Virus record (IMG/VR): IMGVR_UViG_3300031972_000193 | Span: 1-22,015 of that record | From: a virus | Direction: 5' to 3' (one strand) | Length of the DNA stretch: 22,015 bases | In this document: piece by piece, positions 4,053-22,015 of the stretch | How positions within the stretch are numbered: the first letter of the stretch is position 1 | Layout: each line of letters opens with the position of its first letter | The notes under the pieces: generated by a model | Database searches by the model: none | What the model was told of the DNA's origin: nothing | What the model saw: only the letters and a program-made list of their open reading frames with translations | Translations under genes and position numbers: made by a program

Positions 4053-4388
4053 ATGAGCAAAGTAGATAAAAACCAATGGAAAGTGAATTATTTATACAGG
4101 CTTCAACAGTTATGTAACAAAGATTTAGACGTCTTATATGCTAACAAACTAGAGCCAGAATACAAGGAGAGAGAAGTGAATCGTATATCTTTAAGAGATT
4201 ATATTGCCTATATAGGCAACGCTGGAGCAGCAAAGTTATTTGAATGTTCTGAAGCAACGGCAAAGTCCTGGAGGTATGGCCAAAGGCAACCATCCATCAA
4301 ACAGGCGAAGAAGATAATCAAGGCAGCAGACGGCAAGCTAGACTTTGAATCTATCTATGGATCACTTGAAACTACATTTGAAGAATAG
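4053..4388 (+). CDS. Helix-turn-helix protein, Cro/YdaS-like (111 aa)
   Basis: Residues 47-103 resemble the Cro/YdaS type of DNA-binding domain: LRDYIAYIGNAGAAKLF, then CSEATAKSWRYGQRQPS (turn and recognition helix), then IKQAKKIIKAADG. The N-terminal 45 residues are helical and unassigned. I start it at the ATG at 4053. The in-frame TTG at 4020 would lie upstream of the expected transcript start (about 4024). There is no clear Shine-Dalgarno; the leader is A-rich. It is divergent from the Sak4-like gene across the perfect inverted repeat at 3987-4017, so I infer that it may regulate both operons, or act as a replication-initiation DNA binder for the primase-helicase five bases downstream. 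Confidence 0.65.
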   Translation: MSKVDKNQWKVNYLYRLQQLCNKDLDVLYANKLEPEYKEREVNRISLRDYIAYIGNAGAAKLFECSEATAKSWRYGQRQPSIKQAKKIIKAADGKLDFESIYGSLETTFEE

Positions 4389-4393
4389 TAGAA

Positions 4394-6514: not shown

Positions 6515-9500
6515 GCTAGTCTGCCTAAGCTTTCAGCTATATCCTCGTTAAGAGAAGATCCACCTAACAAACTTCTGCTTATAGGAGCCTGAGTATTTTG
6601 ACCAAGTGGATTTGTAGGCATAATGTCTGGTAAATCTGGTATAGCATTTGAAAGAGGTTTTGTTACCTGCTCTACCTGTCCTCTTAATTCTTCTGCTGTC
6701 GCTTGATTTTCTGGTGATTCTATTTGTTTTCTTAATTCTTGATCTAAAGAAGTTTTTGCAACGTTCCCACTTTCCTGAAGACTTTGAGCTGCTGTTAGCC
6801 TAAGCGCTTTTTCAAAAGCATCTATGACCATCATAGTTGAGCTTGTATCAGTATTTGCCATCATTTTAACAATTCTAGGATTTGCAAATACATTACTAAA
6901 TACTTTTAATCCTAAAATAGTTGGCATCAAAGAAATGTTAAGAGCTTGCGCTCCAATAGCACCAGCAACAATTCCACCAGCTGTTAATCCTTGCGCTGCT
7001 CCAACTTGTAAATCTAATGATTGTTGTAAAGCTTTAAATGCAAGTAACTGTTCTTTGCCAAACATAGCTTCAAGAGTTTCATCTCCATAAGATTTTAAAG
7101 CAGTTTTAAGATTATTAGGCTTAAATATATCTGAAAGTTTAGATGTAGATTTTAAAGAACCAACACTTACGGCTTCTGTTAGAAGTTGGCCCATAGCGTT
7201 CTCTTGTATCTGCGCAAATGTTTCTGGTGCTAATTTTTTATTTTTTACCATTTGTTTTATTAAATTAATATCAGCAGCAGAGTTTGGTCTAAAAATAGTA
7301 GCTACAACTTTTTCTGGAGTTTGGTTGTTTATGTTTTTTATAAATTGTTTTTTACTAAAATCTTCTGCAACTTGTAAAAGAGTTGCTTTTTGTTTTAGAG
7401 TTTTTAAAATTTCATTTGCAACATTAATTTCTGGAATAAAATCTTTTCCATCTCCAGGTCTTGCACCCATAATGTATTTTTCTGGTTTTTGTTCTAATCG
7501 TAAAAGAAATTCATCTAAATCTTTTTTGCTAATCTTTGGTTTAAGTGCGTTTATATCATCAAGCAATGCAATATTTTGATCGTACTTATTTCCAAATAAC
7601 TCTCTTAATGTAGAATTACCATCTTTGCTGTCATATTTTTTTATATTTTTACTAAGGGCTACAGGGTTTATTAATTTAGTTGCTGGATCTGTGCTATTTG
7701 CAATAGCATTTTTAAATAACAAGCCTGTTAACTGACCTCTATACATTTCTTTTTTTGTTGGATCTACAGCATTTAAAATTTCTTTTACTTGTTTGCCGCT
7801 TACAGGATTATCAATAAAGCCAAATATTTCTTCTGCATCTAACTTACCATTTCCTCCATTAGCAGCTTTAACTCTATTTACTATATCTTTATAAACAGTA
7901 CCTTGAAATTTACCTATATTTGTAGCAAAGTCTTGATCGGCAGCTTTTAAAGCACCTATTGCGCCTTGTGCACTTTTTAAAGATTCAGCACTTAAATCTT
8001 GCCCAACAAATGCTTTTTTATTAATTATATCTTTAAATAAATTGTCAATTTCTTCGTCAGCTTTTCCAACAGCTCTGTAGATAGAGCCGCTTACTTGTCC
8101 TCTAGCATAAAGATCATTCTTTACTGCTTTAAATTCTTTTCTGGCGTTTACAAGTTTTTGTAAATTATCTACCTTACCTTCTGCTAAATCTTTTATTTTT
8201 TTGTAAGCAGATCCTGCGTATTTAAAATACTCATCTTCTACATTAAAAGTATCAAAAATTTCTTTAAATCTACTTTTCTCTGCTTGTAAAGCTTTGGTTA
8301 TTGTTTCATCTCCAATACTATTTTTTAAAGCATTAATAGATTCATCGTATAATTTTTTATTACTAACACTCCATGTAGAATAACTTTCATACATTATGTC
8401 TTGAAGTTCTTGTTTTAATTCTGCTCCTTCTTTTCTTAAACCTTTATAGTTTAAACCTCTAACAGTATTCATTTCATCAAGCATCATTTTTAATAGATCA
8501 TCTAATCCTTCATCTGATGTCATTAATGCTTTATCTAAATCAGATTTGAATATTTTTAATTCTTGGTTTGCTGTTTTTCCTATAGCTCCAGATGAAACAA
8601 ATTTATCTATTGTTGCATTTTTGTTTCCTATAGATTCAAAAAATCTATTCATGTTTTGTATTAAATTTGTCCTAACTCTTTTCTCTCTTGGTGATGCGCC
8701 TGTAACGGCCTCAGCAATAGATTGTCCCCTGGCTGGTATGCTTCTTCCCAAAGCTGCTTGAGTAACAATTCCTCTTGAAAACTTGGGTTTAATTTTTTGT
8801 TTCTTAAGTTCTTTTAATACTTCATTTCTAGTAGCTTTAAAACTTGTATCTATTACTCCATCTTTACTGGTAATATTTTTTTTAGTTGCTATTTGAGAGT
8901 CTACTCTAAATATATCTTTTAAATCATATCCTTCCATTACAAATTTAGAATCTCTTATTGCTCCAACATCAGCAGTTTTTCCAAAATAAGTAGCAAATAT
9001 ACCGCCCAAAATTTCTCCAGCTCCTTGAGCTACAAAACCTAATACCGCCTCATCTTTAACCATTTCTGCAATTTCTTCTTCGTTTTGTAATTGCACTCCT
9101 CTAGCAACTTCGTTTGCTTCTTCTGCTGCTTTACCAGCTCCAGATCCAGCTGCAACTAAAGCAGCTCTTCCTATTCTAGAGCCTACAAGACCTCTTAAAA
9201 ACTTTATGCCTCTCATGTAAGGATTGACTGAAGCTATAGCTCCACCCACAGGGCCAACATAGCCAGCCATATCTGCAAAATCTCCAGAAGTAAAAGATTT
9301 ATTTTCATCTATAACAATATTTTTATTAGAAACTTCTAATCCTAAACTTGCTTGACCTTTAGGAGTTAAAGCCAAACTTCCTTTTGAGTCTCTAACAAAA
9401 CCACCTGATCCAACATAATCTTTTAATACATTTTCCTTTTCAGATATAAAATTATTGTTATCGTCATAATAATCTTCAGCTACAGACAATTGCGCTCTTA

Positions 9501-9669
9501 AAGCATTATCTTGTATGCCTGTTTCATAATCAAAATAAACTTTGTCGTATGCTTTAGAGCCTTCCTTTTTAGCAACTACAGCTTTAGCTTTAGCCTTAGC
9601 GTCTTCTGGATTATCGGCTTTAACTCTAACTACGACTCCTTCAGCTAACTTGACATCATATATTTCCAT
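6511..9669 (-). CDS. Large virion-associated protein, possible ejection protein (1052 aa)
   Basis: No domain family recognised. The N-terminus (YDVKLAEGVVVRVKADNPED) resembles short N-terminal modules I recall on large internal proteins of marine phages. Two glycine/alanine-rich hydrophobic stretches stand out: about 135-230 (GYVGPVGGAIASV, AALVAAGSGAGKAA, GFVAQGAGEILGGIFATYF) and about 895-930 (LTAGGIVAGAIGAQALNISL and following residues). Between them lies a long lysine/glutamate-rich helical body. Large size, helical body and membrane-seeking segments fit a protein packaged in the capsid and injected with DNA, as with T7-group internal proteins; that is inference. It is the last gene of the late run, has no clear Shine-Dalgarno, and starts at a TAATG junction. 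Its stop overlaps the primase-helicase stop by four bases. Confidence 0.7.
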   Translation of the reverse strand: MEIYDVKLAEGVVVRVKADNPEDAKAKAKAVVAKKEGSKAYDKVYFDYETGIQDNALRAQLSVAEDYYDDNNNFISEKENVLKDYVGSGGFVRDSKGSLALTPKGQASLGLEVSNKNIVIDENKSFTSGDFADMAGYVGPVGGAIASVNPYMRGIKFLRGLVGSRIGRAALVAAGSGAGKAAEEANEVARGVQLQNEEEIAEMVKDEAVLGFVAQGAGEILGGIFATYFGKTADVGAIRDSKFVMEGYDLKDIFRVDSQIATKKNITSKDGVIDTSFKATRNEVLKELKKQKIKPKFSRGIVTQAALGRSIPARGQSIAEAVTGASPREKRVRTNLIQNMNRFFESIGNKNATIDKFVSSGAIGKTANQELKIFKSDLDKALMTSDEGLDDLLKMMLDEMNTVRGLNYKGLRKEGAELKQELQDIMYESYSTWSVSNKKLYDESINALKNSIGDETITKALQAEKSRFKEIFDTFNVEDEYFKYAGSAYKKIKDLAEGKVDNLQKLVNARKEFKAVKNDLYARGQVSGSIYRAVGKADEEIDNLFKDIINKKAFVGQDLSAESLKSAQGAIGALKAADQDFATNIGKFQGTVYKDIVNRVKAANGGNGKLDAEEIFGFIDNPVSGKQVKEILNAVDPTKKEMYRGQLTGLLFKNAIANSTDPATKLINPVALSKNIKKYDSKDGNSTLRELFGNKYDQNIALLDDINALKPKISKKDLDEFLLRLEQKPEKYIMGARPGDGKDFIPEINVANEILKTLKQKATLLQVAEDFSKKQFIKNINNQTPEKVVATIFRPNSAADINLIKQMVKNKKLAPETFAQIQENAMGQLLTEAVSVGSLKSTSKLSDIFKPNNLKTALKSYGDETLEAMFGKEQLLAFKALQQSLDLQVGAAQGLTAGGIVAGAIGAQALNISLMPTILGLKVFSNVFANPRIVKMMANTDTSSTMMVIDAFEKALRLTAAQSLQESGNVAKTSLDQELRKQIESPENQATAEELRGQVEQVTKPLSNAIPDLPDIMPTNPLGQNTQAPISRSLLGGSSLNEDIAESLGRLA

Positions 9670-11831
9670 TATGTTGCATCTATAAATATGCCAGCAGAGG
9701 ATCTACCTAAATCTGTATTGCCAAGAATTATTGGACTACTAAAACTGTAATCTTTAGTATTTATAATTTTTTCTAATAAATCTTTATAGCTGCTAATAGC
9801 ATCTGTTCCTACATTTCCATAAGCTGGATTTTGCATTAGTTTATATGTAGTTGAAATTGTATCTCTTTTGTCAATATTACTGGTTACTAAACTTTGTCTA
9901 GCATTTTTAAGTTTTTTTAAGATTTCTCCAGGAGGGCTAGTTAAATCTAAATCACCAAATACTCTATTAACAATATCTCTATCTGTGTCAGATATAGTTC
10001 TTCCAGATTCTTGTAATATTGCTCTAATGCTTCTTTGTTTTACTTGTTCTATCATGTTTTGAATCTTTGTTGCTGCTGATGCTTCTTTGTCATAACCTGC
10101 AAAAGCAGCTGCTTCATCTTTAAATCTTTCAAACCTGCCTGGTAATCCTGTTATTGGAACACCTTTTTGCACAGCTTCCTCAAAAAGACTAATAGTATCA
10201 TTCATAATAGCGATAGACGCTTCTCCGCCTTCAAAAAATCCAACATTTGTGTTTAATTCTTTAGCCATAAGATCTAGGCCTTTTATATCAGATGGTTTTA
10301 ACAAAGGCTTGACTCCAGCTATTGCTTCTTCTGATTTTCTTTGAGCTGCTAATTGTTCTTCTAACACTCTTTCTTCTGCTGCTGCGGCCGATCCTTTGCC
10401 AATGCCTTCTGCAAAGTTTCCATATTGAGTTAAACCTTTACCAATATTTCTCATTAGCCTTTGAGTATCTTTATTATTAAATATAGAATTTGAAATTTCA
10501 GCTGCTGCATCATTACTATCATCAAGTATATTTATATTTGGTAATTTGTCTTCTCCTGAACCTTTTCCAGGCTCGTCTCCAGTACCTTCTGGATTAGTAG
10601 ATGTTCCTGTTATAGTCTCATCATCTGCTGCAGTTTCACCTGCTATAGCATCGCTTTCTATAGGAGTTCCTATTGCATCGTCATTTGTAGTAGGAGTTTC
10701 TTCTTTTGTTTCAACTGTAACATTATCTTCTGCTATTTTTGATAAATCTTTGCTTGCATCGTAAACTTCTGGAGCTTGATATTGAACTCCAGGAATTTGA
10801 AGTAATCTTGCTAAACCAATGTCTTCTTTTGATATATCAACATCTGGAATAAAATCTTTAACAGCTTGCCTACCTGCAGCACCACCTCCAAGTTCTCCAA
10901 AAAATCCTGCTATACCTTCAGCTATTGGGCTTGCTATATTGCCAAATTGTCTACCTACTTCCTGAGCACCATAACCAAAATCTCCAGGACTAGCAAATGT
11001 ACCTCTTCTTTCTTCAAAAGATCCTCCTAGTCTTTGACTTATTCTGAAAGGTTCATCCATGTCTGCAAAATTTTCTAATATTGCAGCAACGTCTGGACTA
11101 AATTCAAAATTTCTATTATTTATTATTGAGTATAAAGTCATGCCTCCAAGCATTCCTCCTTCAACTTGCTGTTGAAAATCTCTTGGCAAATTATATATAG
11201 AATTAGTTGTTTTATCTCTTATCTGCAAATTACTTAAATCAGATGAAGTTCCAATATCTGTAATTTCTGGTAGATTGTCCTCTTCAACCACAGGTAAGTC
11301 TGAAGGCATTTGAGGAGGAATCATGTCTATATCTATACTTGGCATGTTTAAAATTTGCCTAGCTTCTTCTTCGCTTAAATTAAAAGAATAATTTGGAGAG
11401 GTTAACATTATCAATTGCTGGTCTTTTCCAAATTGAGCAGTTGCTGCTAAAAATTCTTGTAGTTCAGGCGGGACTATACTTATGTCATCTAAGTTTGGGA
11501 GCTCTGGCGGAGTTGCACCTTCTGGGAAACTTGGATTCATTGTTGTCATGCCATCTTGATTTGCAGTAACTGTAGTTTCAGGTATTTGCGGAAAAACATT
11601 AAAATTACCTTCAAACTCATTAGCTCCAGGACTTGCTACTGCTGAATTAATACTTCCGCCTAATTGAGAAACTGCTGCTTCTATATCACCCATAGCTAAA
11701 TCTGGGAGCATTTCTTTTATTTCAAGAGCGTTGTAGCCTTGAGATACATAGTAACCAATTAACTCAGGGATGCTTGGCTCTGCTTGAGCAGCTCCACCAT
11801 TTGCAAACATCTTTCTATTTAATACATTCAT
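9669..11831 (-). CDS. Virion-associated protein, acidic (720 aa)
   Basis: Not assigned to a family. It opens with NRKMFANGGAAQAEPSIPEL; a short [M/Y]F-x-[N/K]-GG element of this kind also occurs in the 442-aa protein (YFNKGGIA), suggesting a shared assembly or processing signal. Residues about 60-430 are low-complexity, rich in Pro, Asp, Glu, Thr and Ser, and probably disordered. The last 250 residues are helical (EERVLEEQLAAQRKSEEAI; RSIRAILQESGRTISDTD). The latter segment resembles C-terminal parts of phage structural proteins I have seen but cannot name. It starts two bases after the 428-aa gene's stop with no clear Shine-Dalgarno, so translation probably depends on coupling. It is likely an internal or tail-associated virion component. 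Confidence 0.65.
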   Translation of the reverse strand: MNVLNRKMFANGGAAQAEPSIPELIGYYVSQGYNALEIKEMLPDLAMGDIEAAVSQLGGSINSAVASPGANEFEGNFNVFPQIPETTVTANQDGMTTMNPSFPEGATPPELPNLDDISIVPPELQEFLAATAQFGKDQQLIMLTSPNYSFNLSEEEARQILNMPSIDIDMIPPQMPSDLPVVEEDNLPEITDIGTSSDLSNLQIRDKTTNSIYNLPRDFQQQVEGGMLGGMTLYSIINNRNFEFSPDVAAILENFADMDEPFRISQRLGGSFEERRGTFASPGDFGYGAQEVGRQFGNIASPIAEGIAGFFGELGGGAAGRQAVKDFIPDVDISKEDIGLARLLQIPGVQYQAPEVYDASKDLSKIAEDNVTVETKEETPTTNDDAIGTPIESDAIAGETAADDETITGTSTNPEGTGDEPGKGSGEDKLPNINILDDSNDAAAEISNSIFNNKDTQRLMRNIGKGLTQYGNFAEGIGKGSAAAAEERVLEEQLAAQRKSEEAIAGVKPLLKPSDIKGLDLMAKELNTNVGFFEGGEASIAIMNDTISLFEEAVQKGVPITGLPGRFERFKDEAAAFAGYDKEASAATKIQNMIEQVKQRSIRAILQESGRTISDTDRDIVNRVFGDLDLTSPPGEILKKLKNARQSLVTSNIDKRDTISTTYKLMQNPAYGNVGTDAISSYKDLLEKIINTKDYSFSSPIILGNTDLGRSSAGIFIDAT

Positions 11832-11833
11832 AA

Positions 11834-13120
11834 TTAACCAGTTTGAGTGTTTCCTGTATTTTGGTTTTGATTGCCATACTGTCCGCCATAATTAGAGTAA
11901 GCATTAAAGAATGCTCCTAATCCTAATGCGCTTGGATCTTGAGGCATTCCGTATGTAGTATTAATGCTAGTTCCACCAGGTGTGTACTGAGGCATAAATC
12001 CTCGCATATAATCTACAGCCTTCATTCCTCTAAATCTATTTCTTTCATCAGCATCATACGCAGCATCTATACCACGTTGCTTCATTCCTCTGGCTGCTTC
12101 GTCAAAGCCCATTAATTCGCTTCTTTCATCTCTGCCCATTTGTTGATACATGCCACCAAGTCCGCCCATTTCTCTGCCGTAGTCGGTGTAATCTCTTGTA
12201 AGGCCGCCAATATCTCCAGATATACTTCTCATATCTCCAGCACCAGTTCTTGCTATGTCGCCTCTTCTGGCGCCTAAGCCCATCATGTCACCAGCAAATC
12301 CTCTTCTAGCACCTAACATATCTCTGCCTAATCCAGATTCAAATCCAGCAGCTCTTTCTAATGCGCCTCTGCCAAATCTTGATTCATCTATAGCTCTGCC
12401 TTGAGCTGTATCAAAACCTCTAGAACGTATACTAGATAAAGCTTCACCTAAACCTCTACCTAAAGCAGCTCTTCTTTCTTCAGCTCCAAGCTTAGCTCTA
12501 GAACCAAAAGCAGATTGACCGCCTGATTGAATGTCTCTTGCTCTTTGGCCTATGTCGGCTATCTCGCCTTGTTTGAATACGTCATCTATTGTTTGTTGTA
12601 CAACTTGATTTTCAAATGGATTGTTGTAAGCAGCTGTAGAACGTGGATCAAAGCCTTGCAAAGAAGCTCTTTGAAAGTCTCTAGCTGATGGTCCTTGTCT
12701 ACCAAAGCTGGACATTAAATCTCCCATACCCATTCCATACTGTTGCTCTGCTTGGGATAAATATGGTTGTTGCATTTGACCAGCTCTTCTATAACCTTCT
12801 GTAGCTTCATCAAGCAATCCTCTTCTTTCTCCTATAGTTCCCATCCCTTGTAGCAAAGTATTTTTTTGAAAGTCTAAATAAGGTTTATATCCACCAATTC
12901 CAGCATAAGCAGATTCCATTGCTCTGTTGGCAAATGGAGAAAACCCTGCTACACCTCTAGGATCAAATCTTCTGCCATAAGCTGCTTCTGCAGCTCTTCT
13001 GCCTTCACTTAATATACCTTCGTAATCTGGACTGCCGAAATAAAATTCTCTTAAACGAGGATCGCTTATTTGTTGGTTTTTTTTAATCCCTGTTACTATC
13101 GGGTTTACTGTATCTGCCAT
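11834..13120 (-). CDS. Virion-associated Gly/Arg-rich protein (428 aa)
   Basis: Resembles a phage structural type with a conserved central block, here NPFENQVVQQTIDDVFKQGE (about 166-185) followed by QSGGQSAFGSRAKLGAEE. This NPxxxxVVxxTxxD...GAFGSR pattern recurs in virion proteins of marine and freshwater phages, as I recall it. From about residue 225 the sequence becomes a quasi-repetitive run of short Gly/Arg/Asp/Met units (FGRGALERAAGFESGLGR, GARRGDIARTGAGDMR). It ends in an Asn/Gln/Gly tail (YGNQNQNTGNTQTG). Its biochemical role is unknown; a tail, internal or DNA-transfer part is plausible. GAGG precedes the ATG, which is fused to the preceding stop (TAATG). Confidence 0.65.
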   Translation of the reverse strand: MADTVNPIVTGIKKNQQISDPRLREFYFGSPDYEGILSEGRRAAEAAYGRRFDPRGVAGFSPFANRAMESAYAGIGGYKPYLDFQKNTLLQGMGTIGERRGLLDEATEGYRRAGQMQQPYLSQAEQQYGMGMGDLMSSFGRQGPSARDFQRASLQGFDPRSTAAYNNPFENQVVQQTIDDVFKQGEIADIGQRARDIQSGGQSAFGSRAKLGAEERRAALGRGLGEALSSIRSRGFDTAQGRAIDESRFGRGALERAAGFESGLGRDMLGARRGFAGDMMGLGARRGDIARTGAGDMRSISGDIGGLTRDYTDYGREMGGLGGMYQQMGRDERSELMGFDEAARGMKQRGIDAAYDADERNRFRGMKAVDYMRGFMPQYTPGGTSINTTYGMPQDPSALGLGAFFNAYSNYGGQYGNQNQNTGNTQTG

Positions 13121-14448
13121 TAGATTGCCTCAAATATGTCCATCAGTTCACGCATATTTTCTACACCTTTCTTACGAGATGATTTGCCGCCTGATATTAA
13201 TTCTATTCCTGATTTTGTTTTGTTTAAGTTAAAAGCGCCTGCACCTTTAGTTGCAGCAGCAGTCATTACAAACTCACCATCGCTTAACATTGCTGGTATG
13301 TCATCCGAAGTGCCAGTTCCAGGGCCTGCTGATTCTCCACCATCACGCATATCTAATTCTCTTACTGCTGCTATACCGCCTTTATTAAAGTATTGCCTGT
13401 CAATTGGGCCACCCATAGCAGCAAAGACTTCAGGTGAGAAAGACTTAGGAGCTGCTGAAAGACCAAACTCTTCTCTAGTTCCGCCTGTGCCTAAAGTATT
13501 GGCCATTGAATATCTGCCAAGCGCATCCATTGTTACTTCTGGAGTCTGTGATAATCCACCTGCTCTTTCTTCGGCTGATTTTTTCGTAGCTTTACCTAAA
13601 GCTAAGGCTAGAGCAAACATTTTAGGATCCATGCCTCCACCTTGATTATTGCCTCCAAGAAGACTTCCTAAACCTCCACCACCAAATATTTTTTCAAGAA
13701 AGCTGCCGCCTCCTCCTTTACTTAAATTTGATAATGCACTTCCTACAATATTTCCAGAATTATCCATTATTCCTGCTTCTTTTAATTCCCCAGCTGTAAA
13801 AGTTTCACCAGTAACAGAATCTACATATAAGCCTGTAGGATTTCCTGCTTCATCATATTGCATTTCAACACCAGGCTGTTGACCACCCATACCACTAAAC
13901 AAGCTACCTATACCTGATCTTATTGATGGACCTATAGTTCCTCCAAAAATACCTTTTTTTCCAACAGCAGGGTTAAAGAAATTTTTTAAACGAGAAAATC
14001 TGCCAGTTGCTGCTCCACCAGCTGCGCCTGCACCACCAGCTGCGCCTGCTCCAGTCATAAAATTAAATCCTGTAGATAAAGCTCCACCAACTCCAGGTAT
14101 TGCTTTTAACATTCCGCTAACAGCTGGTCCTAATCCTGGTATAAACATACTTGCTACACCCAATACAGGTGCTGCTTTCTTAGCTACTTTTTTAACTGAC
14201 TTAAATGTTTTCTTAAGCCAACCAAATTCAGGTTGACCTGTGATTGGATTAATGGACATGCCATTACCAACAGTATATTCATTCGGAGAAAGGCCTGCTG
14301 CCTTCATCTCTTGCTCTATGCGTTGTCTTGTTTCTTGGGATATAACAGGTGGTACTACCATTTCGCCTTGAGCGACGTGAGCCATATACTGATCTTCGTC
14401 TCTACCTAAGCTTGCTATTCCTTGTCCTGAGTTGTCTATTCTATTCAT
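13120..14448 (-). CDS. Virion-associated Gly-rich protein with DGEFV motif (442 aa)
   Basis: Recognisable phage structural motifs at both ends: MAHVAQGEMVVPPVIS near the N-terminus (22-37) and SDDIPAMLSDGEFVMTAAAT near the C-terminus (about 382-401). Both are seen in many uncultured phage virion proteins, whose exact role I do not know. The middle is Gly/Ala-rich, with a basic helix (KKTFKSVKKVAKKAA), a hydrophobic glycine-rich segment (PVLGVASMFIPGLGPAVSG) and loops of pure Gly/Ala. The hydrophobic part could insert into a membrane during DNA entry, but it may simply be flexible packing. It lies 15 bases downstream of the oxygenase gene and is fused by TAATG to the next gene. Confidence 0.65.
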   Translation of the reverse strand: MNRIDNSGQGIASLGRDEDQYMAHVAQGEMVVPPVISQETRQRIEQEMKAAGLSPNEYTVGNGMSINPITGQPEFGWLKKTFKSVKKVAKKAAPVLGVASMFIPGLGPAVSGMLKAIPGVGGALSTGFNFMTGAGAAGGAGAAGGAATGRFSRLKNFFNPAVGKKGIFGGTIGPSIRSGIGSLFSGMGGQQPGVEMQYDEAGNPTGLYVDSVTGETFTAGELKEAGIMDNSGNIVGSALSNLSKGGGGSFLEKIFGGGGLGSLLGGNNQGGGMDPKMFALALALGKATKKSAEERAGGLSQTPEVTMDALGRYSMANTLGTGGTREEFGLSAAPKSFSPEVFAAMGGPIDRQYFNKGGIAAVRELDMRDGGESAGPGTGTSDDIPAMLSDGEFVMTAAATKGAGAFNLNKTKSGIELISGGKSSRKKGVENMRELMDIFEAI

Positions 14449-14463
14449 ATTACAATTTTACCC

Positions 14464-15198
14464 TTAATTCGCTTCGCTGTTAATATCTTCTTCTATAGAT
14501 GTTAACCAAAAAACCAACAAATATCTATCTCCTTCCTCTACTGCTAGTCCTCTGTGCATGTGTGTGTAACTAGGAAATATTAGTCCGCTACCTGTAGGTA
14601 ATGGCTCTATAACTCCTTTATTTAAAAATTCTGTGCCTCCGCCCTTGTAATCTCCTGTGTTTAAAGGGACTACAATACTAACATCTGAGCTGGCGTCATG
14701 GTGCCAAGCTCCTTGTTTTTTATTCTTTAAGTTGTAGTTAGCTATCTGTATATTGCCGCCTGTAACATGACGATTCCATATACTTAGTAAGATTGGATTA
14801 ATAAGTGAATTAACTACGTGCATCAATGAATCGTAGAGTTCTGGGCATTTTTCACTAAGAACTATCTCTGGTATCTGTCTTAGTTCATCTTCTTCTGGAT
14901 TAGGTACAAATGAAAAAGATTTTGTCATATTATCTATTTCATCTAAAAGTATTGTACAAAACTTTTTTGAAAACAAAGGAACTGTATAAACATCTTGTAA
15001 AGGTTGCTTGACAATATCTTGTAGTGGTAATTCTTCTGGATCGCCTAGACCTTGGCTTTTGTAAAATTTAATTATATTTGGAAGTGATGCTTTTGCTTTT
15101 TCTAAAGTATCTTGGTCAACAAACCAATCAGCAGGAAATCCAAGCAACAAGTTTTTTAACTTGTATTCTTCTTGTTCTATTACTTGTTTTGCCAACAT
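14464..15198 (-). CDS. 2-oxoglutarate/Fe(II)-dependent oxygenase (244 aa)
   Basis: A dioxygenase with the prolyl-4-hydroxylase-type fold in its C-terminal half. The facial triad is visible: WHHD gives His166 and Asp168, and THMHRG gives the distal His215. Arg225 (EEGDRYLLVFWL) is the expected 2-oxoglutarate-binding residue. The core double-stranded helix strands SIVVPLN, GGGTEFL, GSGLIFPS and YLLVFWL are in the usual order. The N-terminal 110 residues are helical and unassigned. Such enzymes hydroxylate protein side chains, nucleobases or small molecules; the substrate here is unknown. It is embedded between structural genes in the late run, so a virion protein or lysate component is a possible target. 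AGGA lies nine bases before the ATG. Confidence 0.85.
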   Translation of the reverse strand: MLAKQVIEQEEYKLKNLLLGFPADWFVDQDTLEKAKASLPNIIKFYKSQGLGDPEELPLQDIVKQPLQDVYTVPLFSKKFCTILLDEIDNMTKSFSFVPNPEEDELRQIPEIVLSEKCPELYDSLMHVVNSLINPILLSIWNRHVTGGNIQIANYNLKNKKQGAWHHDASSDVSIVVPLNTGDYKGGGTEFLNKGVIEPLPTGSGLIFPSYTHMHRGLAVEEGDRYLLVFWLTSIEEDINSEAN

Positions 15199-15216
15199 AT
15201 AAAAATATCCTAAAAT

Positions 15217-15555
15217 CTAGGTTACTGTTACATTTACTGCTATATTGCCCTTTGTTATAACAGAAACAGCACCTAAAGAAGCTGTAGCTTTAAAACCATT
15301 ATTGGGTGTATTAGGAGTATGTAACTGAGTCCAGCTGTTTCCTATGTAAACTTGCAACACGCCTTGAGAAGTATTCCAAATTACATCACCTTCTAAAAAG
15401 TTTAATTGCGCAATCTCTGTTTCGTTGAACTGCGGCGTTCGATTTGGGTCGAACTGTCCTAAGTTTAACTCAAGAATCCTAACTAATCTATTAAAAATTT
15501 CAGCAGACATCTCTCCCTGAGCAAGCGGGAGGCTGGTTGGTAGTAATTTTGCCAT
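15217..15555 (-). CDS. Small virion-module protein (112 aa)
   Basis: Not recognised as a named family. The first half is helical (GEMSAEIFNRLVRILELNLG), and the middle has GDVIWNTSQGVLQVYIGNSW, a beta-rich pattern I associate with small proteins next to tail genes in phage genomes. The C-terminus is beta-like and small-residue rich (FKATASLGAVSVITKGNIAV). It is fused by TAATG to the 618-aa gene, so the two are made together; this supports a tail or neck role without proving it. Its stop is 18 bases from the oxygenase start. Confidence 0.6.
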   Translation of the reverse strand: MAKLLPTSLPLAQGEMSAEIFNRLVRILELNLGQFDPNRTPQFNETEIAQLNFLEGDVIWNTSQGVLQVYIGNSWTQLHTPNTPNNGFKATASLGAVSVITKGNIAVNVTVT

Positions 15556-17411
15556 TATCTTCTGCCGTCTGGTTTAATATCTAACCTAGTAGCTCCTAGT
15601 CTCCATCCTACGTTATCGTTACCATCTGAATCGTCATCTGACTCTACTCTAAATACAGCTTGACGACTTCTTGCTCTAAGACTTATTTGTCCAGTTGATG
15701 ATCCTACAGAGGATGTAGAGCTGGTTGACAAAGATTCTCCAGGATTGTTTCTAGTTTTTATAACAAGATTTACCTTACCTGAATCTGAATTAGCTAAGAA
15801 TTTTAAATCTGGGAACATTCTTTGTATGTAAGCAAATTGTTCGCCTTCACCAACTTCAAAATCTGAACTTTCTATAAATACGTTAGTCATAGGGTTGCCA
15901 TCATCGTTAAACCCGTCTTCTTGTTCAAACAAGTAACCGTTGTAAGTAGCTCTAGGATAGTCTTCAATACCACTATCTAACCAAGCATGTCTTTCTAATT
16001 GTCCGTAATACCAAACATTATCTTCGTAGTTATAGATAACGTATCTATCTATTTCTGTTGCGCTTGAAGAGCAATAAAACCATCCTACCTCAGATTTTTC
16101 AGTAATCGTGAAAGCATGTACTTTAAAGGATTGTTCGTAATTTATATCTCCAAATACATAATTATGAACGTTGCAAGGTAATTTTTGTACGCTACCTGTG
16201 TAAGAATAAAAATTAGTTGAAGACATCCAATAAATAGCTTGTGCTGAAGTAACAACAGCTTTAGGCCCTATAAGACCAGTACCTTCATTAATTAGGTTAA
16301 CCGCAAATGTAAAAGGTGGCCCAACAAATTGCATACTATACAAAGCAGTATCAGTCCAAATAAGTATTTCTTGTCTAGATTTAGTAGCACCAATAATAGA
16401 AGAACCAGAAGATAACCTTAAATCTCCAGCAGTATTAGTAATCAATGGTTGAAACTCTAAATCATTTTCTTGGTCACTAAAAGATATAAGCATAGGATCT
16501 ATAGTTCCTGTCCTTGCTCCACCTGATACTGGATCTGAACCTAATACAATTAAATGCCTATCTTTTTCAGAGGTAATAACTTGTAAGCCTACTGTTGGTA
16601 CTAAATTAGCTCCAGAAATAGCTGAAAGATTTAAAGCTCTTGTTTCTAAACCATTATTTTCTACCCATCTATAAACACCTCCAGCCCTAGGATTTATTAT
16701 AAGATTTTCTCCAAAATGGTCATGTGTCCAAAGTCTTAGCTGGTTAGTAGCAGATAGTGCTGTAGTAGAGCCAAAAGTACCTTCTCCCCAAGTTCCAGAA
16801 CTCCATCCAGTACCAGTTATATATACATCCAAGCCTACATTTATTTGATAAACTCCATCTACTGCGGAGCCTCCGTTACCAGAATCAGAGCTGTTGGCCG
16901 TAACAATACTACCGCTAGTATCTTTTGCAACAAATGTATAGGTGTTGGTTGTAATAGAAGTAATCTGATACTCTTGGTTTAAAACATTTGCTGTTATTAA
17001 ACCTCCTAAACTTACAGCGTCTGAGAAAGTAACAAAATCATTTAATACTGCACCATGAGCATTATCAGTAGCTGTTATAGTAGAGCTGCCATTAGTAGCA
17101 GAAAAAGTAACGCCATTAGTCGTAGTCTTTCGTATGGGGGTAACATCTGAGTAACTATCTCCTTCTCTTATATAATATTTAAAAGTAGTGCCTAAACCCA
17201 AATATTTTGTACCTCCTAAAGAAGTCCAAGCGTGTAAAGCCCTACCAGTTCCTAAATAAGAATTTGATCCATCTTTAGACCAACCTCCAAACTTTTCTGG
17301 CCTGCCTTTTCTAAAACGTACAAGATTTACATCAAACCAACCGCCTGTATTATCGTATTCAGTTCCTTCTCTGTTTATACCTGGATTAAATAAAATCTTG
17401 CTAAGAGGCAT
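15555..17411 (-). CDS. Putative tail/stabilisation protein (618 aa)
   Basis: The N-terminus (INREGTEYDNTGGWFDVNLV, then RFRKGRPEKFGGW) is characteristic of a phage structural family annotated as tail or stabilisation protein; I think of it as resembling the P22 gp10-type head-closure plug, but this cannot be verified here. The rest is beta-rich with many Gly/Thr/Ser/Asn turns, short repeats of the kind NGVTFSATNGSSTITATDN, and no membrane segments or signal peptide. It follows the lysozyme stop by three bases. The C-terminal segment DNVGWRLGATRLDIKPDGRR is compact and charged. It likely forms part of the portal-tail connection or tail tip. Confidence 0.6.
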   Translation of the reverse strand: MPLSKILFNPGINREGTEYDNTGGWFDVNLVRFRKGRPEKFGGWSKDGSNSYLGTGRALHAWTSLGGTKYLGLGTTFKYYIREGDSYSDVTPIRKTTTNGVTFSATNGSSTITATDNAHGAVLNDFVTFSDAVSLGGLITANVLNQEYQITSITTNTYTFVAKDTSGSIVTANSSDSGNGGSAVDGVYQINVGLDVYITGTGWSSGTWGEGTFGSTTALSATNQLRLWTHDHFGENLIINPRAGGVYRWVENNGLETRALNLSAISGANLVPTVGLQVITSEKDRHLIVLGSDPVSGGARTGTIDPMLISFSDQENDLEFQPLITNTAGDLRLSSGSSIIGATKSRQEILIWTDTALYSMQFVGPPFTFAVNLINEGTGLIGPKAVVTSAQAIYWMSSTNFYSYTGSVQKLPCNVHNYVFGDINYEQSFKVHAFTITEKSEVGWFYCSSSATEIDRYVIYNYEDNVWYYGQLERHAWLDSGIEDYPRATYNGYLFEQEDGFNDDGNPMTNVFIESSDFEVGEGEQFAYIQRMFPDLKFLANSDSGKVNLVIKTRNNPGESLSTSSTSSVGSSTGQISLRARSRQAVFRVESDDDSDGNDNVGWRLGATRLDIKPDGRR

Positions 17412-17414
17412 TTT

Positions 17415-17885
17415 TTATACATGCTCCCAGTCTTTACCTTCAAATAGCAAAGCTTCAGCCTCTCTACGTCTTATAAGGCCTTGTAAAACTTTTCCGCCAG
17501 CTTTGTTCCAGCGCTTAATTTGGTTTGGGACATCTTCCCAATCTTTATTGTTAATTTTCTGTAATAAAGTTGATGAATTAAAGTTTGATGGCCCAAGATT
17601 AAATACCCAAGCAACTAACGCATCAAATTCATTTTGTTTAAGATCTGTTTTAACCATATCATTTATATAGCCTTCATACTCTTCCATTTCGTGAATTAAT
17701 AAATCTTCTGCTTCTTGTGTAGTTATGCACATTCCACCATGTACAGGCTTTCCTTCATATTTTGTAGAGCCATATCCAATTGTCCAAACTCCTGCTGCGC
17801 ATTTATAACTTACTGCATGTCCATTTTCTACTGGACAACCTTCAAACTTTTTTATAAGTGATAAACCTTCTTGTGAAATTTTCAT
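17415..17885 (-). CDS. Phage lysozyme, GH24 endolysin (156 aa)
   Basis: A muramidase that cleaves peptidoglycan at lysis. The start is the ATG at 17885 (MKISQEGLSLIKKFEG), preceded by GGGGAG; the longer open frame would overlap the nuclease gene. Catalytic Glu15 (KKFEG) and the AGVWTIGYGST block with Thr35 are clear. The position of T4 Asp20 is occupied by Cys29 (SYKCAAG), a replacement known in several GH24 enzymes. The Glu-to-Cys spacing is 13 residues rather than the T4 spacing of 8 to its Asp, owing to a short insert (PVENGHA). No signal or SAR segment is present, so it needs a holin, and a candidate lies two genes upstream. The C-terminal NQIKRWNKAGGKVLQGLIRRR is typical of the family. 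Confidence 0.92.
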   Translation of the reverse strand: MKISQEGLSLIKKFEGCPVENGHAVSYKCAAGVWTIGYGSTKYEGKPVHGGMCITTQEAEDLLIHEMEEYEGYINDMVKTDLKQNEFDALVAWVFNLGPSNFNSSTLLQKINNKDWEDVPNQIKRWNKAGGKVLQGLIRRREAEALLFEGKDWEHV

Positions 17886-17886
17886 G

Positions 17887-18267
17887 TTAGTAATCTCCCC
17901 ATACTTTAACTTTTTTACCACCTTCGTAGGCAACTGCGTGCCCTTCATCAATAAGCATTTGACAAATATCTTCGCCATCTTTTGTATAAGGGATGCCCAA
18001 TATTCTGCCATACTTACCTTTTCCAAGTGATTTTATTTTCAATTTGCCAACACAAAGTTCTTTTAGTCTTTCTTTTGCAGCAAGCCCTAGTTTTTTTTCT
18101 GCTAGATCTCTTGTGCGTGACTCTGGTGTGTCAATGCCTGCTAATCTAACTCTTTGTTTATGTAGCTTAACGTCAAATCCTAAATCTAGAATACAATCAA
18201 AGGTATCGCCATCAACAATTCTATCTAATGTCGCGTTGTAAACAAAAGCATCTGGTGCGTTTGCCAT
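17887..18267 (-). CDS. Staphylococcal-type nuclease (SNase/thermonuclease, 126 aa)
   Basis: A calcium-dependent OB-fold nuclease cutting DNA and RNA. Residues matching the S. aureus active site are present: Asp21 (IVDGDTF), Arg41 with RLAGIDTPESR giving Asp46 and Glu49, and Arg88 (GKYGRILG). The C-terminal MLIDEGHAVAYEGGKK is also typical. There is no signal peptide, so it acts in the cytoplasm or at lysis rather than being exported. It is one base from the lysozyme gene and has AAAGGAG inside the preceding small gene, so it belongs to the lysis cassette. Likely jobs are degrading host DNA for nucleotides or thinning the lysate; neither is proven. Confidence 0.92.
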   Translation of the reverse strand: MANAPDAFVYNATLDRIVDGDTFDCILDLGFDVKLHKQRVRLAGIDTPESRTRDLAEKKLGLAAKERLKELCVGKLKIKSLGKGKYGRILGIPYTKDGEDICQMLIDEGHAVAYEGGKKVKVWGDY

Positions 18268-18432
18268 TTATTTCTCCTTTGCTTTACCTATATTTAAAGC
18301 CAACATATCAATAAATTTGTATAGTTTGCCAACCCAAACGTCGTCTTTAGGTGTAGAAGTAGATGCTGCAATTAAGCTTGAAACAGTTACTATTGTTGTA
18401 ATCCAAACTACTATATTAGTTAAAAAATCCAT
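18268..18432 (-). CDS. Candidate holin, 54-residue single-span membrane protein
   Basis: The frame encodes MDFLTNIVVWITTIVTVSSL, then a short linker (IAASTSTPKDD) and a soluble tail (VWVGKLYKFIDMLALNIGK) ending AKEK. One N-terminal membrane span of about 20 residues with a charged C-terminal tail is a small-holin architecture. Similar tails (KLYK-IDLLALNIGKAK) occur in my memory in small proteins of marine phages. AAAGGAG precedes the ATG at good spacing. It lies between the spanin pair and the nuclease/lysozyme genes, and the lysozyme lacks an export signal, so a holin is needed and this is the only candidate in the window. The stop abuts the nuclease start directly. Confidence 0.75.
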   Translation of the reverse strand: MDFLTNIVVWITTIVTVSSLIAASTSTPKDDVWVGKLYKFIDMLALNIGKAKEK

Positions 18433-18477
18433 ATTTTTCTCCTTTGTGAAAATTAATGGTCTATTGATTTTAGCAGA

Positions 18478-18849
18478 TTATTCGTCTGGTTTGTCAATTG
18501 TTACCTTTCTATAGTAAACAACTACTTCTTTAAGTTCATTTATGTAACGTTTTAACTCTTGCATGTTATAAGCCATAAGCTCGTAATCTGGAATAGACAT
18601 GGCTACAAATACTAATTGGCCTTGATCTTTTTCTACTCTTTCTAAAAACTCTTCAATGTTTTTATCAGATACTACATACCAATAGGGTTCTTTAAGATCT
18701 ATCTCCCTAGGCATTATAGGTTGAACTATAGTTCTTTCTACAGGCTTGGTTAAAACTTCTATTTGTTTAGTCGGAATCAGGCTGCAACTGCAAGCCATCA
18801 TCAAGATCATCAATGTTGCGACTGTCTTCTTCAATGCTATCAAATACAT
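18478..18849 (-). CDS. Putative o-spanin-like lipoprotein (123 aa)
   Basis: An N-terminal basic-hydrophobic signal (LKKTVATLMILMMACSC) with a lipobox-like MMA-Cys20 points to a lipoprotein anchored in the outer membrane. The mature part is a short Pro-containing stretch (LTKPVERTIVQPIMPREIDL) followed by mixed alpha/beta sequence ending in a helix (MQELKRYINELKEVVVYYRK). It is larger than classic Rz1 proteins, so it may be a spanin-type partner or a separate late lipoprotein. Its start lies 83 bp inside the end of the i-spanin-like gene in another frame, the arrangement typical of Rz/Rz1 pairs. AGGAA precedes the ATG. Membrane fusion at lysis is the inferred role. Confidence 0.65.
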   Translation of the reverse strand: MYLIALKKTVATLMILMMACSCSLIPTKQIEVLTKPVERTIVQPIMPREIDLKEPYWYVVSDKNIEEFLERVEKDQGQLVFVAMSIPDYELMAYNMQELKRYINELKEVVVYYRKVTIDKPDE

Positions 18850-19162
18850 TTTTCGTTCCTTTGTTTACCCTGGGTTCAATAAGTCCAGGCTTAGCTGCTG
18901 CTAATTTAGTTAAATCATGCCTTTTAAATATGTCAAGGTACCTTGTCATTTCTTGTTGTATCTCTTGATTACGGCCTTGAAGCTCTAACAAACTGGTAGC
19001 TTGCAAAGCAAAATCTTTTTTTATGGTAGCAATAGTTTCTTTTTGTGTTTCTACAGCGCCTTCTAAAACTTGATTATTAGTTTTAAGAGTAATATTTTCA
19101 TTGTAAAGCCAATAAGAACTAAGTCCTAAAACCAATATAATACCTATTAATACTTGTTGCAT
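18767..19162 (-). CDS. Putative i-spanin (Rz-like, 131 aa)
   Basis: An uncleaved N-terminal membrane anchor (VLIGIILVLGLSSYWLY) is followed by a coiled-coil-like periplasmic region (about 25-85, with LKTNNQVLEGAVETQKETIA). The conserved-looking end HDLTKLAAAKPGLIEPRVNK is one I associate with Rz-like proteins of cyanophages and other marine phages. The very C-terminus is acidic (DDLDDGLQLQPDSD) and is encoded over the start of the lipoprotein gene. GAGGAA precedes the ATG, which is fused to the previous stop (TAATG). With the overlapping lipoprotein it would span the periplasm and fuse inner and outer membranes after peptidoglycan is cut. Confidence 0.75.
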   Translation of the reverse strand: MQQVLIGIILVLGLSSYWLYNENITLKTNNQVLEGAVETQKETIATIKKDFALQATSLLELQGRNQEIQQEMTRYLDIFKRHDLTKLAAAKPGLIEPRVNKGTKNVFDSIEEDSRNIDDLDDGLQLQPDSD

Positions 19163-19401
19163 TATAATTCCTCAATAATGTAATTAAGTCCACCAGAGCT
19201 GCGATACTCTATTTCCCTGCCTTCTTCATTGCGAAATTTTAAGTGGTTTTCTTTTTGGACTATAATTTTTTTTGTAATGTGAATGGTGTCATCTGAATCA
19301 CCGTACTCTTTATTAAAAGATACAGTAATTTGATATCTAATTTTAAATTTATTCCATATCCATTTAAAGATTAATAACAGAACATTTTTAAATTTACTCA
19401 T
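19162..19401 (-). CDS. Small conserved-looking phage protein (79 aa)
   Basis: Function unknown. The N-terminus is basic and partly hydrophobic (FKNVLLLIFKWIWNKFKIRY), which could lie on a membrane surface. The remainder is beta-rich: ITVSFNKEYGDSDDTIHITK, then KENHLKFRNEEGREIEYRSS and GLNYIIEEL. I recall similar small proteins near lysis genes in marine phages but cannot name a family. It starts one base after the cyclase stop and is fused by TAATG to the i-spanin-like gene, so it bridges the signalling pair and the lysis cassette in one transcript. Confidence 0.65.
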   Translation of the reverse strand: MSKFKNVLLLIFKWIWNKFKIRYQITVSFNKEYGDSDDTIHITKKIIVQKENHLKFRNEEGREIEYRSSGGLNYIIEEL

Positions 19402-19402
19402 T

Positions 19403-21142
19403 TTAATTCCAAGTATAGACTTTAAGAGCTTTTGCCTTTCCTTTAACTTTTAAGTCTTCTAAAGATTTTAACTTAAAACTACAACTTTTGGCAGTCTCAT
19501 GTCCTATAAGAAAATCAACACCTGCTTCTTTAGTTCCAGACTCAAGACGTGCTGCTACATTTACGCAGTCACCAATCGCCGTATAATCAAATCTATTATC
19601 TGAACCCATATTGCCTATAACTGCAAAGCCTGTGTTTACACCAACGCCTATTTCTATACCTAAACCAGATAGCTTTACTTCATCTTGTATTTCTTTAGCG
19701 CAAAGAATTGCAGCGTCTTCGTGATTATCTAAGTCTATAGGAGCATTAAATATGGCCATCATTGCGTCACCAATATATTTATCTACCATTCCCTCATATT
19801 TTTTTACAGCGTTAGCTTGAATGGTTAGAGCTTTGTTCATAATCTCTGTTACTTCTTCTGGTTCTAATTGTTCTGACAAAGAAGTAAAGCCTCTAACATC
19901 TGTAAATAAAAATGTGCATCTTCTTCTTTCGCCACCAAGTTTTAAAAGCTCGGGGTTGTCTTGCAATTGTTTAACTTGCCTCGGATCAAGATAATGCTCA
20001 AATTGTTTTTTGATTAATTGGCGTAATTTAAACTGTTTTCTAAAGTTTAGATAAAAAGCAATAGCCCCAGTTATGAACTGTGAGATAAAAGTCCATGAAA
20101 AATCTATTAAATAACCTTTTTGGATGCTAAAAAAGCCTGAGAGCGCCGTAGTCACAAGCAAAATTACAGCAACACTTACACCCTTGGTTATACCAAAAGA
20201 GTTTATTGAGAGCCATGTGAGAGTAACAAATATCCCAAAAATTAAAATTTCTAAAGCTATTGAAAAATCTGGTATATGTGGAGAGTTTTCTATAAGAATT
20301 GACTCAGATAATGCTGCTTGAATCTTATGTGGCTCTAATAATCCAGATGGAGTTGCAATCTGTGGCATAATTCCATTTGCAGTAACACCAATAAATACAA
20401 ATTTACCTGCTACATCCATTTCTTCTAAAGTTGTTTGCGGTGTATCTACCCAACTTATCCACTTGCGGCCATAATTATCTACAGGTATTGGAGCTAAACC
20501 TTTTATCACTATTTCTTCTAATCCATTATTATTAGTTTTTATAATGTATGTATTAGATCCTGCAAGTATTTTTAACACCTGCGTTCCAAATGCAGGAGAC
20601 CAACCTTCAGGCGTCTTCATTAGTAATGGTATTCTTCTAACCAAGTTGTCTATATCAACTGGTGCAGATGCAATTCCTTGCGTAGCTTCTGCTTTTAATA
20701 CATCTATATTCTCAACAATACCAGGTGACATATATCCACCTACGTCATCTCCAAGTATGACAGTTCCTGTAGTTGGCGGATAAGAACCGCTAGGACTTTC
20801 AAACATAGCTAGAACACTTGGTCTAAGCTCAAGAGCTGTTGCAAAGAACTTATCTCCGCCAAACCTATCTGGCTCACTAAAAGATACTACCCAGCCAACA
20901 CCTATAGCACCTTCAGCTAAAATATCTAATTGTATCTGCGCTAAATCTTTTCTAGGAAATGGCCATCCTCCTCTTTTGCGAACATCATCTTCTGTGATAT
21001 TAAGAGTGGTAAAGTAGCCAGATGGTTCTTGCTCTGCAACGTAAGCATCAAATATTTTTAGTTTAAGTATTTCTGTAGGCGTGCTTTGAAACACCAAAGG
21101 CAAGCTTAGTATTATAAGTATGGGTAATAATAGCTTATTCAC
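19403..21142 (-). CDS. CHASE2-domain class III adenylate/guanylate cyclase (579 aa)
   Basis: A membrane sensor that should make cAMP (or cGMP). Residues 1-18 are a signal-anchor. About 25-285 is a CHASE2 domain, placed in the periplasm (GGWPFPRKDLAQIQLDIL, SEPDRFGGDKFFATALE, DIDNLVRRIPLL). Three membrane spans follow (about 295-312, 320-338, 348-367), the standard CHASE2 arrangement. The cytoplasmic cyclase domain (about 400-579) has every canonical residue: metal-binding Asp415 (FTDVRGFT) and Asp459 (DKYIGDAMM), substrate-binding Lys455 and Thr521, and transition-state Asn528 and Arg532 (GDCVNVAARLE). Thr521 replaces the usual Asp, a class IIIb trait. It starts at GTG and overlaps the FecR gene by 8 bp. 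Its presence in a phage late operon is unusual. Confidence 0.93.
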   Translation of the reverse strand: MNKLLLPILIILSLPLVFQSTPTEILKLKIFDAYVAEQEPSGYFTTLNITEDDVRKRGGWPFPRKDLAQIQLDILAEGAIGVGWVVSFSEPDRFGGDKFFATALELRPSVLAMFESPSGSYPPTTGTVILGDDVGGYMSPGIVENIDVLKAEATQGIASAPVDIDNLVRRIPLLMKTPEGWSPAFGTQVLKILAGSNTYIIKTNNNGLEEIVIKGLAPIPVDNYGRKWISWVDTPQTTLEEMDVAGKFVFIGVTANGIMPQIATPSGLLEPHKIQAALSESILIENSPHIPDFSIALEILIFGIFVTLTWLSINSFGITKGVSVAVILLVTTALSGFFSIQKGYLIDFSWTFISQFITGAIAFYLNFRKQFKLRQLIKKQFEHYLDPRQVKQLQDNPELLKLGGERRRCTFLFTDVRGFTSLSEQLEPEEVTEIMNKALTIQANAVKKYEGMVDKYIGDAMMAIFNAPIDLDNHEDAAILCAKEIQDEVKLSGLGIEIGVGVNTGFAVIGNMGSDNRFDYTAIGDCVNVAARLESGTKEAGVDFLIGHETAKSCSFKLKSLEDLKVKGKAKALKVYTWN

Positions 21143-22015
21143 TTTGCGTTATGGTTATATTAGAATCACCACCACCGTTAATCTTAACTACATTAGATAC
21201 TCCATCCTGGATAATAATAAGTGTATAAGAGCCATTGCCGTTTAAATCTAATCTAACCGAATCATTTACTTTTCTTCTTAGACTTATTATATCACCTTGA
21301 ACTAGGGTAGTTATTTGGGTATCTGGATCTTGTCCTATTCTAGTACCTGTTAAATTAATACCGCCTGCATCTGCTAATACATCTTCCTCTTCACCAATAG
21401 CCAAAGAATCTAATACATTAAGCAAGTCTTCTAAAAAGTTAGTATCAAGGTAGTTAATATCAAGCTCTGTAAACTCTAGCTCATCTTCTCCCAAGAAGTC
21501 TTCATCAAGATAGTCTATATCAAGATCATTAAAATCTAGTATGTTTGCTTTAGCGTTTTGTGATACTTCTTCAGTAAGAGTAGTTTGTCGTTTAGGCGAC
21601 GTAACAATAAGCATGTTATCTATAATGTCTAATGTTAAATCTAGTATGACTGGTTTACTTGGCTTAGATTCAAAGACGCTTACAGTAGTAGCTTCAAATG
21701 GCTTATTAAGTATGACACTTCCCATAGCTGTAACTACTTCTATTTCACCACTAGATAAACCTAAAGCATCTGGTAGCAGTATAATAAGTGACCTGCCTAA
21801 TTCGTCTACTGTGGCTGTAAAATCTGTGCCTCTTATAGCTATATTAGCTGTAGGAGTTTTAAGTGATATATTTTGTTTATCTATTTTGCCTAAGTTACCT
21901 GTAATGAACCTAGCTGTACCAAGCCCAAAGGTAAGGGCCATCTTTGCTTTGCTTGGGTCTGGATCATAGATGTATTCATCTATAGTTAGTTGTGAGTGTT
22001 CAGTTAGTTTTACTG
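21135..22015 (-). CDS. FecR-domain protein with acidic repeats (5' end missing)
   Basis: The frame stays open to the window edge, so the first in-frame Met inside the window (21941) is not the start. The upstream residues (HSQLTIDEYIYDPDPSKAKM) continue into GLGTARFITGNLGK, then ISLKTPTANIAIRGTDFTAT, the core FecR fold with its RGTDF signature. FecR domains are typically periplasmic. Numbered from that Met, residues about 134-190 are strongly acidic and hold two copies of a 14-residue unit. The last 75 residues form a separate beta-rich region (QITTLVQGDIISLRRKV, SVRLDLNGNGSYTLIII). It overlaps the cyclase start by 8 bp, so the two are co-produced and probably work together at the envelope. 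A signal peptide, if any, lies outside the window. Confidence 0.85.
   Translation of the reverse strand, partial: VKLTEHSQLTIDEYIYDPDPSKAKMALTFGLGTARFITGNLGKIDKQNISLKTPTANIAIRGTDFTATVDELGRSLIILLPDALGLSSGEIEVVTAMGSVILNKPFEATTVSVFESKPSKPVILDLTLDIIDNMLIVTSPKRQTTLTEEVSQNAKANILDFNDLDIDYLDEDFLGEDELEFTELDINYLDTNFLEDLLNVLDSLAIGEEEDVLADAGGINLTGTRIGQDPDTQITTLVQGDIISLRRKVNDSVRLDLNGNGSYTLIIIQDGVSNVVKINGGGDSNITITQSE
21432..21533 (-). repeat. Acidic 14-residue direct repeat in the FecR-domain protein
   Basis: FNDLDIDYLDEDFL (137-150 from the in-window Met) and FTELDINYLDTNFL (157-170) are spaced 20 residues apart and match at most positions. The DNA copies differ at several sites, so the duplication is not recent or the unit is under protein-level selection. 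Asp/Glu density suggests metal binding or a charged docking surface. Confidence 0.7.

Follow-up and report, generated by a model that had tools for sequence, protein, structure and literature searches.

Why does a phage place a gene for a FecR-domain protein and a gene for a CHASE2-containing class III nucleotide cyclase before its lysis genes? The window analysed here – an entire viral-contig record of 22,015 bases – has such a pair at its right edge, and an initial annotation read it as an envelope sensor that raises a cyclic-nucleotide signal late in infection and might tune lysis timing, an arrangement for which it knew of no characterised tailed phage. We find that the pair almost certainly closes a curli (type VIII secretion) cassette carried by the phage, at its downstream side, which reassigns an apparently unique lysis sensor to a known, widespread module of marine phages. 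The new content is modest, and consists of a curlin-like tail on the FecR-domain protein and a chromosomal operon of the same kind in one Caulobacteraceae assembly.

Curli modules have been described in phage HTVC008M, in methylophage Melnitz and in uncultured pelagipodophages (Zaragoza-Solas 2020, PMC7029224; Buchholz 2022, PMC9004378; Wittmers 2022, PMC9599517). FecR and an adenylate cyclase are named explicitly in phage curli operons by Wittmers 2022 (PMC9599517), who also report expression of the cassette in metatranscripts, its wide distribution, the absence of the CsgE gate and a histidine kinase before csgF, and who propose roles in aggregation, superinfection defence or uptake (PMC9599517). 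The supposed absence of the pair from characterised tailed phages is thus contradicted by this description and by two cultured phages, HTVC008M (grown on Pelagibacter) and Melnitz (grown on OM43), both of which have the order csgF-csgG-curlin-FecR-curlin-cyclase. Our literature search found no paper testing the cyclase of a phage curli cassette.

The late genes of the window lie on the minus strand (Table 1) and, reading from the right edge, the virion structural genes are beyond the lysozyme gene. The pair had been described as running without a break into spanin, holin, nuclease and lysozyme genes. The spanin, nuclease and lysozyme genes do share its strand, but 210 bp separate the outer spanin gene from the nuclease gene, and the holin has to be withdrawn: the 79-aa product that had been given this role has no Pfam match above cut-off, no PHROG match and no TM-like stretch, any hydrophobic run being too short for a membrane helix, and the assignment is therefore unsupported. 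Holin-like genes are located upstream of csgF instead, in the region described below. The lysozyme reading frame is listed from 18026, with Met48 as the likelier start. The window has no promoter or terminator signals above those of shuffled sequence, including no above-chance terminator-like site between the late genes, and no RNA families or tRNAs were found in it. The contig is viral, as the initial annotation had proposed to confirm, and a chimeric assembly is very unlikely because two independent contigs, L208 (99.96% identical) and L209 (99.98% identical), extend across the junctions.

Table 1. Features of the pair and of the adjoining late genes, in window coordinates
Feature	Coordinates	Strand	Basis or remark
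FecR-domain protein, C-terminal 292 codons	21135..22013	-	start beyond contig end; PF04773 E=3.8e-5, phrog_37870 E=2.7e-60
Curlin-like C-terminal end of FecR (YTLIIIQDGVSNVVKINGGGDSNITITQSE)	21138..21245	-	12.7 bits against curlin repeats
FecR 3' end overlapping cyclase 5' end, 8 bp	21135..21142	-	exact
CHASE2-class III adenylate cyclase, 579 aa	19403..21142	-	Pfam CHASE2 E=8e-26, Guanylate_cyc E=2e-18; phrog_35576 2e-115
CHASE2 domain, predicted periplasmic, residues 12-304	20231..21109	-	Pfam
Three C-terminal membrane helices and signalling helix, residues 294-381	20000..20263	-	AlphaFold model, hydropathy
Cyclase catalytic domain, residues 405-577	19412..19930	-	alignment with CyaB 3r5g and CyaC 1wc0/1wc1; fold match
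79-aa protein, no assigned function	19162..19401	-	present in close relatives only
Rz-like inner spanin	18767..19162	-	phrog_739 E=4e-17
Rz1-like outer spanin, out-of-frame overlap with inner spanin	18478..18849	-	phrog_812 E=5e-12
SNase-type nuclease	17887..18267	-	PF00565 E=8e-14
T4-type lysozyme (endolysin)	17415..17885	-	PF00959 E=6e-44 from residue 60
Virion structural (P22 stabilisation-like) protein	15555..17411	-	phrog_3287 E=3e-61

The cyclase was correctly recognised at the outset as a CHASE2 and class III cyclase protein with all catalytic residues, and the Pfam domains and alignments bear this out. Its residue set is that of a complete class III adenylate cyclase (two Asp, Lys/Thr, Asn/Arg): the metal-binding residues D415 (codon 19898-19900) and D459, the substrate residues K455 and T521, and the transition-state residues N528 and R532 all align with those of the solved adenylyl cyclases CyaB of Pseudomonas (3r5g) and CyaC of Spirulina (1wc0/1wc1), and cAMP is the expected product. 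The layout is that of a CHASE2 receptor, with CHASE2 between an N-terminal TM (residues 2-18) and three further TMs (294-316, 318-341 and 349-381 in the model), as seen with Pfam, the structure model and hydropathy; the AlphaFold model (mean pLDDT 88) has the N-terminal helix, CHASE2, the three helices and the cyclase domain in this order. The gene is under strong purifying selection, with dN/dS of 0.06-0.10 against its nearest homologues and about 0.2 against more distant ones. The window, six long relatives and the complete HTVC008M and Melnitz genomes were searched for a cNMP-binding domain and none was found, and a phage-encoded cNMP receptor was rejected on these grounds. A CHASE2 cyclase homologue on a Pseudoalteromonas contig (L107, 9500-11449) is present as two adjacent same-frame ORFs, possibly a broken gene or one with an in-frame stop.

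Because the contig ends inside the FecR gene, the neighbours on the other side of the pair were invisible to the initial annotation. They are supplied by the separate contig L208, which is 99.96% identical to positions 11989-22015 of the window over 10,027 bp, contains the complete FecR gene (4147-5274), and past the window edge continues into a curlin-like gene, csgG and csgF; beyond these it encodes small membrane proteins and the terminal part of a tail fibre. A sister contig (L003, 88-96% identity) has the same gene order, with CsgG (PF03783, E=7e-48) encoded upstream of FecR and CsgF (PF10614, E=1.5e-14) upstream of csgG. The window thus holds the tail end of a curli cassette, and the near-identity of L208 places that cassette within the phage population of the window. 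The phage curlin-like proteins are homologous to HTVC008M and Melnitz proteins annotated as curlin; since they miss the Pfam curlin model, fibre formation by the phage cassette is putative. Preceding csgF are proteins of 90 and 93 aa with a TM and a coiled coil (L003 3166-3716, L208 1735-2285, L007 6611-6958), which match phrog_18771 and, weakly, phrog_4898, 'holin' (E=2e-4). Pfam identifies no kinase domain in them, and the 'histidine kinase' label of Wittmers 2022 at this position may be wrong.

The cassette has the same csgF-csgG-curlin-FecR-(curlin)-adenylate cyclase order as those of pelagipodophages and pelagimyophages, which are also marine tailed phages (PMC9599517, PMC7029224), but this phage lacks the second curlin between FecR and the cyclase, has the two ~90-aa membrane/coiled-coil proteins in place of the reported histidine kinase, and has spanin/endolysin genes after the cassette. 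HTVC008M (KC465899) carries an orthologous pair in its curli block (cyclase 36.5%, FecR 36.8% identity) but differs in being a myovirus, in having the second curlin, and in the location of the cassette, which adjoins tail-tape and baseplate genes. Melnitz (MZ577097), where the cassette likewise adjoins tail-tape and baseplate genes, has a corresponding curli block (cyclase 32%, FecR 37% identity) and differs in a C-terminal extension of the cyclase, shared with the Caulobacteraceae copy discussed below.

Viral relatives of the cyclase were found in at least 600 stretches, and synteny was scored in the best 80. FecR directly precedes the cyclase in 73 of these 80; the contig begins at or just before the cyclase in six of the remaining seven, and in the last (L066) a DNA methyltransferase ORF, cytosine-methyltransferase-like (3-1625), stands just before it. 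Thirty loci among the best 80 have room upstream, defined as at least 2.4 kb before FecR, and the order csgF-csgG-curlin-FecR-cyclase is present in every one (30/30); a cyclase without curli genes was seen at no locus with room. The lysis genes, whose conserved synteny with the pair the initial annotation had proposed to test, are common but not constant: spanin, lysozyme or nuclease genes lie within 3 kb downstream of the cyclase in 39 of 51 loci with room, whereas in the other 12 neither a spanin nor a lysozyme gene was recognised within that distance. With the structural protein at 15555-17411 used as a marker of the phage lineage, 16 of 22 relatives with at least 4.5 kb upstream have the cassette, and six keep the lysozyme and have no cassette. 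From these counts the pair tracks curli and not lysis, the lysis neighbourhood being a feature of this lineage, and a pair specific to lysis genes is rejected. The 8-bp overlap of the two reading frames is present as first reported, but is not a conserved coupling, with FecR and the cyclase 246-1554 bp apart in 16 of the 73 relatives. A 159-aa membrane-like protein is encoded between them in L003 (6708-7187). At L277 (2666-4784), curli genes and FecR are present with no cyclase before the lysozyme gene.

The assignment of the FecR-domain gene stands, with a Pfam score above the cut-off (24.5 bits against 24; 38.5 for the full-length L003 copy), but the ORF is incomplete, with 292 of about 372 codons before truncation at the contig end. 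Full-length copies in L003 and L004 (~372 aa) begin with a hydrophobic signal-like stretch (1-19) and have no second Pfam domain besides FecR, which argues for an exported FecR-domain protein and not a classical anti-sigma regulator. A role as an iron-citrate/sigma regulator was rejected, the cytoplasmic N-terminal anti-sigma part being absent. In its predicted fold the FecR domain resembles the periplasmic portion of PupR, an anti-sigma regulator (6ovk, E=2e-4), and dN/dS for the gene is 0.04-0.06 against its nearest homologues and 0.11 against a more distant one.

The FecR tail has a motif resembling a curlin repeat, common to all 57 complete viral copies. Profile comparison with curlin is weak (hhalign E=0.02, probability 2%); formal curlin homology was rejected on that basis, and the tail was tested by motif score and permutations instead. 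Against curlin repeats the viral tails score 8.4 bits on average (12.7 for the window copy) and shuffled tails -2.8; when the columns were jointly permuted 5,000 times, a single permutation was as good. The curlin-like tail distinguishes the phage protein from those of bacterial FecR and CHASE2 pairs outside curli operons, being absent in 12 of 12 FecR proteins checked near non-curli CHASE2 cyclases, and no earlier mention of it was found in the literature searched. Given the weak profile comparison and the low confidence of the structure model over the tail, we treat the resemblance as a strong lead. The linker between the FecR domain and the tail (21240-21500) contains acidic repeats with the pattern LDIDYLDEDFL...LDINYLDTNFL, which are conserved and also present in HTVC008M; they too are low-confidence in the model.

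Among bacterial proteins, the one that best matches the cyclase (E=1e-100) is encoded in a Caulobacteraceae assembly, where a chromosomal locus with ordinary metabolic genes on its flanks (L097, 5948-12043) has the order csgF-csgG-curlin-curlin-FecR-CHASE2 cyclase; its FecR tail scores 7.1 bits against curlin repeats. In the cyclase tree, this copy groups with HTVC008M and Melnitz inside a curli-linked clade (100/99) that is apart from other alphaproteobacterial CHASE2 cyclases, and all podoviral copies fall together in one clade (100/100). Cellular genomes seldom have the operon: a full-length FecR match was found in one of 299 Caulobacterales and one of 385 Alphaproteobacteria genomes sampled, the same genome in both. 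A periplasmic FecR-domain protein is also encoded beside a CHASE2 signalling enzyme in the Sinorhizobium meliloti CyaD1 region (PMC5498481) and the Burkholderia BiofilmReg operon (PMC5192318), but unlike the phage neither has curli genes, and the Burkholderia operon has a histidine kinase where the phage has the cyclase (PMC5192318). Without CHASE2, S. meliloti CyaD1 makes cAMP constitutively, and the FecR-domain protein encoded next to it is dispensable for plant-signal perception (PMC5498481).

The explanation that we favour, with modest confidence, is a curli cassette with a FecR-CHASE2-cAMP readout, which would be an insertion into the late region, next to the genes for lysis. The infected cell would build CsgG/CsgF outer-membrane pores and export phage curlin, and the curlin-like tail of periplasmic FecR might bind or mimic the curlin subunit or the pore. 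FecR, free or fibre-engaged, would alter the state of CHASE2 and so switch the cytoplasmic cyclase, and cAMP in the infected cell would report curlin secretion or assembly. Since the phages encode no cNMP-binding domain, the signal would have to be read by a host cAMP receptor, and fibre production or envelope state may be adjusted during infection as the outcome. By analogy, the constitutive activity of CHASE2-deleted CyaD1 supports CHASE2 as a brake on the cyclase. The wiring from FecR to CHASE2 to cAMP is plausible but short of probable, and the dispensable S. meliloti FecR, the weak hhalign result, the low model confidence of the tail, the phage curlins that miss the Pfam model, the lack of clumping with Melnitz and the cyclase-free L277 locus all count against the favoured explanation. 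A more specific circuit, in which the curlin-like unit of FecR either competes with secreted curlin or becomes captured by it, and acts through CHASE2 on cAMP, would let the cell sense phage-made amyloid and would be the same in the source bacterial operon; we put it forward tentatively, as rather unlikely in this full form. If the wiring were true, a second-messenger signal linked to fibres on the cell surface would be part of phage infection in abundant marine bacteria. Envelope sensing with a cyclic-nucleotide signal in the late region is a fair reading of the anatomy, but the novelty and the lysis link first attached to it fall away.

Two other accounts are each improbable, to a similar degree. 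In one, cAMP drives host CRP-type regulators of carbon use and envelope, and the tie to curli is joint inheritance only; the intact, selected catalytic residues fit this, as does any reader being the host's in view of the missing phage cNMP-binding protein, but no cyclase stands apart from curli genes at loci with room, the curli-linked cyclases branch together in a clade apart, and the FecR tail points to curlin. In the other, CsgG/CsgF is a channel for uptake or leakage, no fibres are made, and FecR-CHASE2-cyclase keeps watch on the periplasm so permeabilised. The failure of the curlin proteins to match the Pfam model, the lack of clumping in Melnitz-infected cells (PMC9004378) and the missing CsgE gate (Wittmers 2022, PMC9599517) favour such a pore, but curlin-like proteins are present in every cassette with room.

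Lysis timing is slightly less credible still, whether it is the cyclase, as in the initial annotation, or the CsgG pore, as for Melnitz (Buchholz 2022), that is taken to time or trigger the spanin/endolysin genes downstream. The location of the cassette in this lineage, between holin-like small membrane proteins and spanin/endolysin genes, suits it, and curli pores have been proposed as lysis regulators in a paper that discusses the pore only (Buchholz 2022, PMC9004378); the 12 of 51 loci without a nearby spanin or lysozyme, the tail-tape/baseplate setting in HTVC008M and Melnitz, and the six relatives with lysozyme and no cassette are against it. A passenger cassette without present function, a reading to which the relatives altogether free of it lend something, is very improbable because of selection (dN/dS 0.04-0.10 against nearest homologues, with catalytic residues intact), and at least 600 viral matches and the metatranscript evidence (Wittmers 2022, PMC9599517) also oppose it.

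Relatives of the structural protein at 15555-17411 are found in HTVC023P, CRP-901/902 and DSL-LC04, and judged by this one protein (34% identity) the phage would be only a distant relative of HTVC023P; the window primase is closest to those of roseophages. Three large proteins encoded at 6511-13120 (1052, 720 and 428 aa) match no PHROG, and a comparison of the 1052-aa protein with 50,697 phage records gave no match either. A 2OG-Fe(II) oxygenase-like gene is located at 14464-15198, and several consecutive ORFs of L007 (2767-5043) are oxygenase-like as judged by eye.
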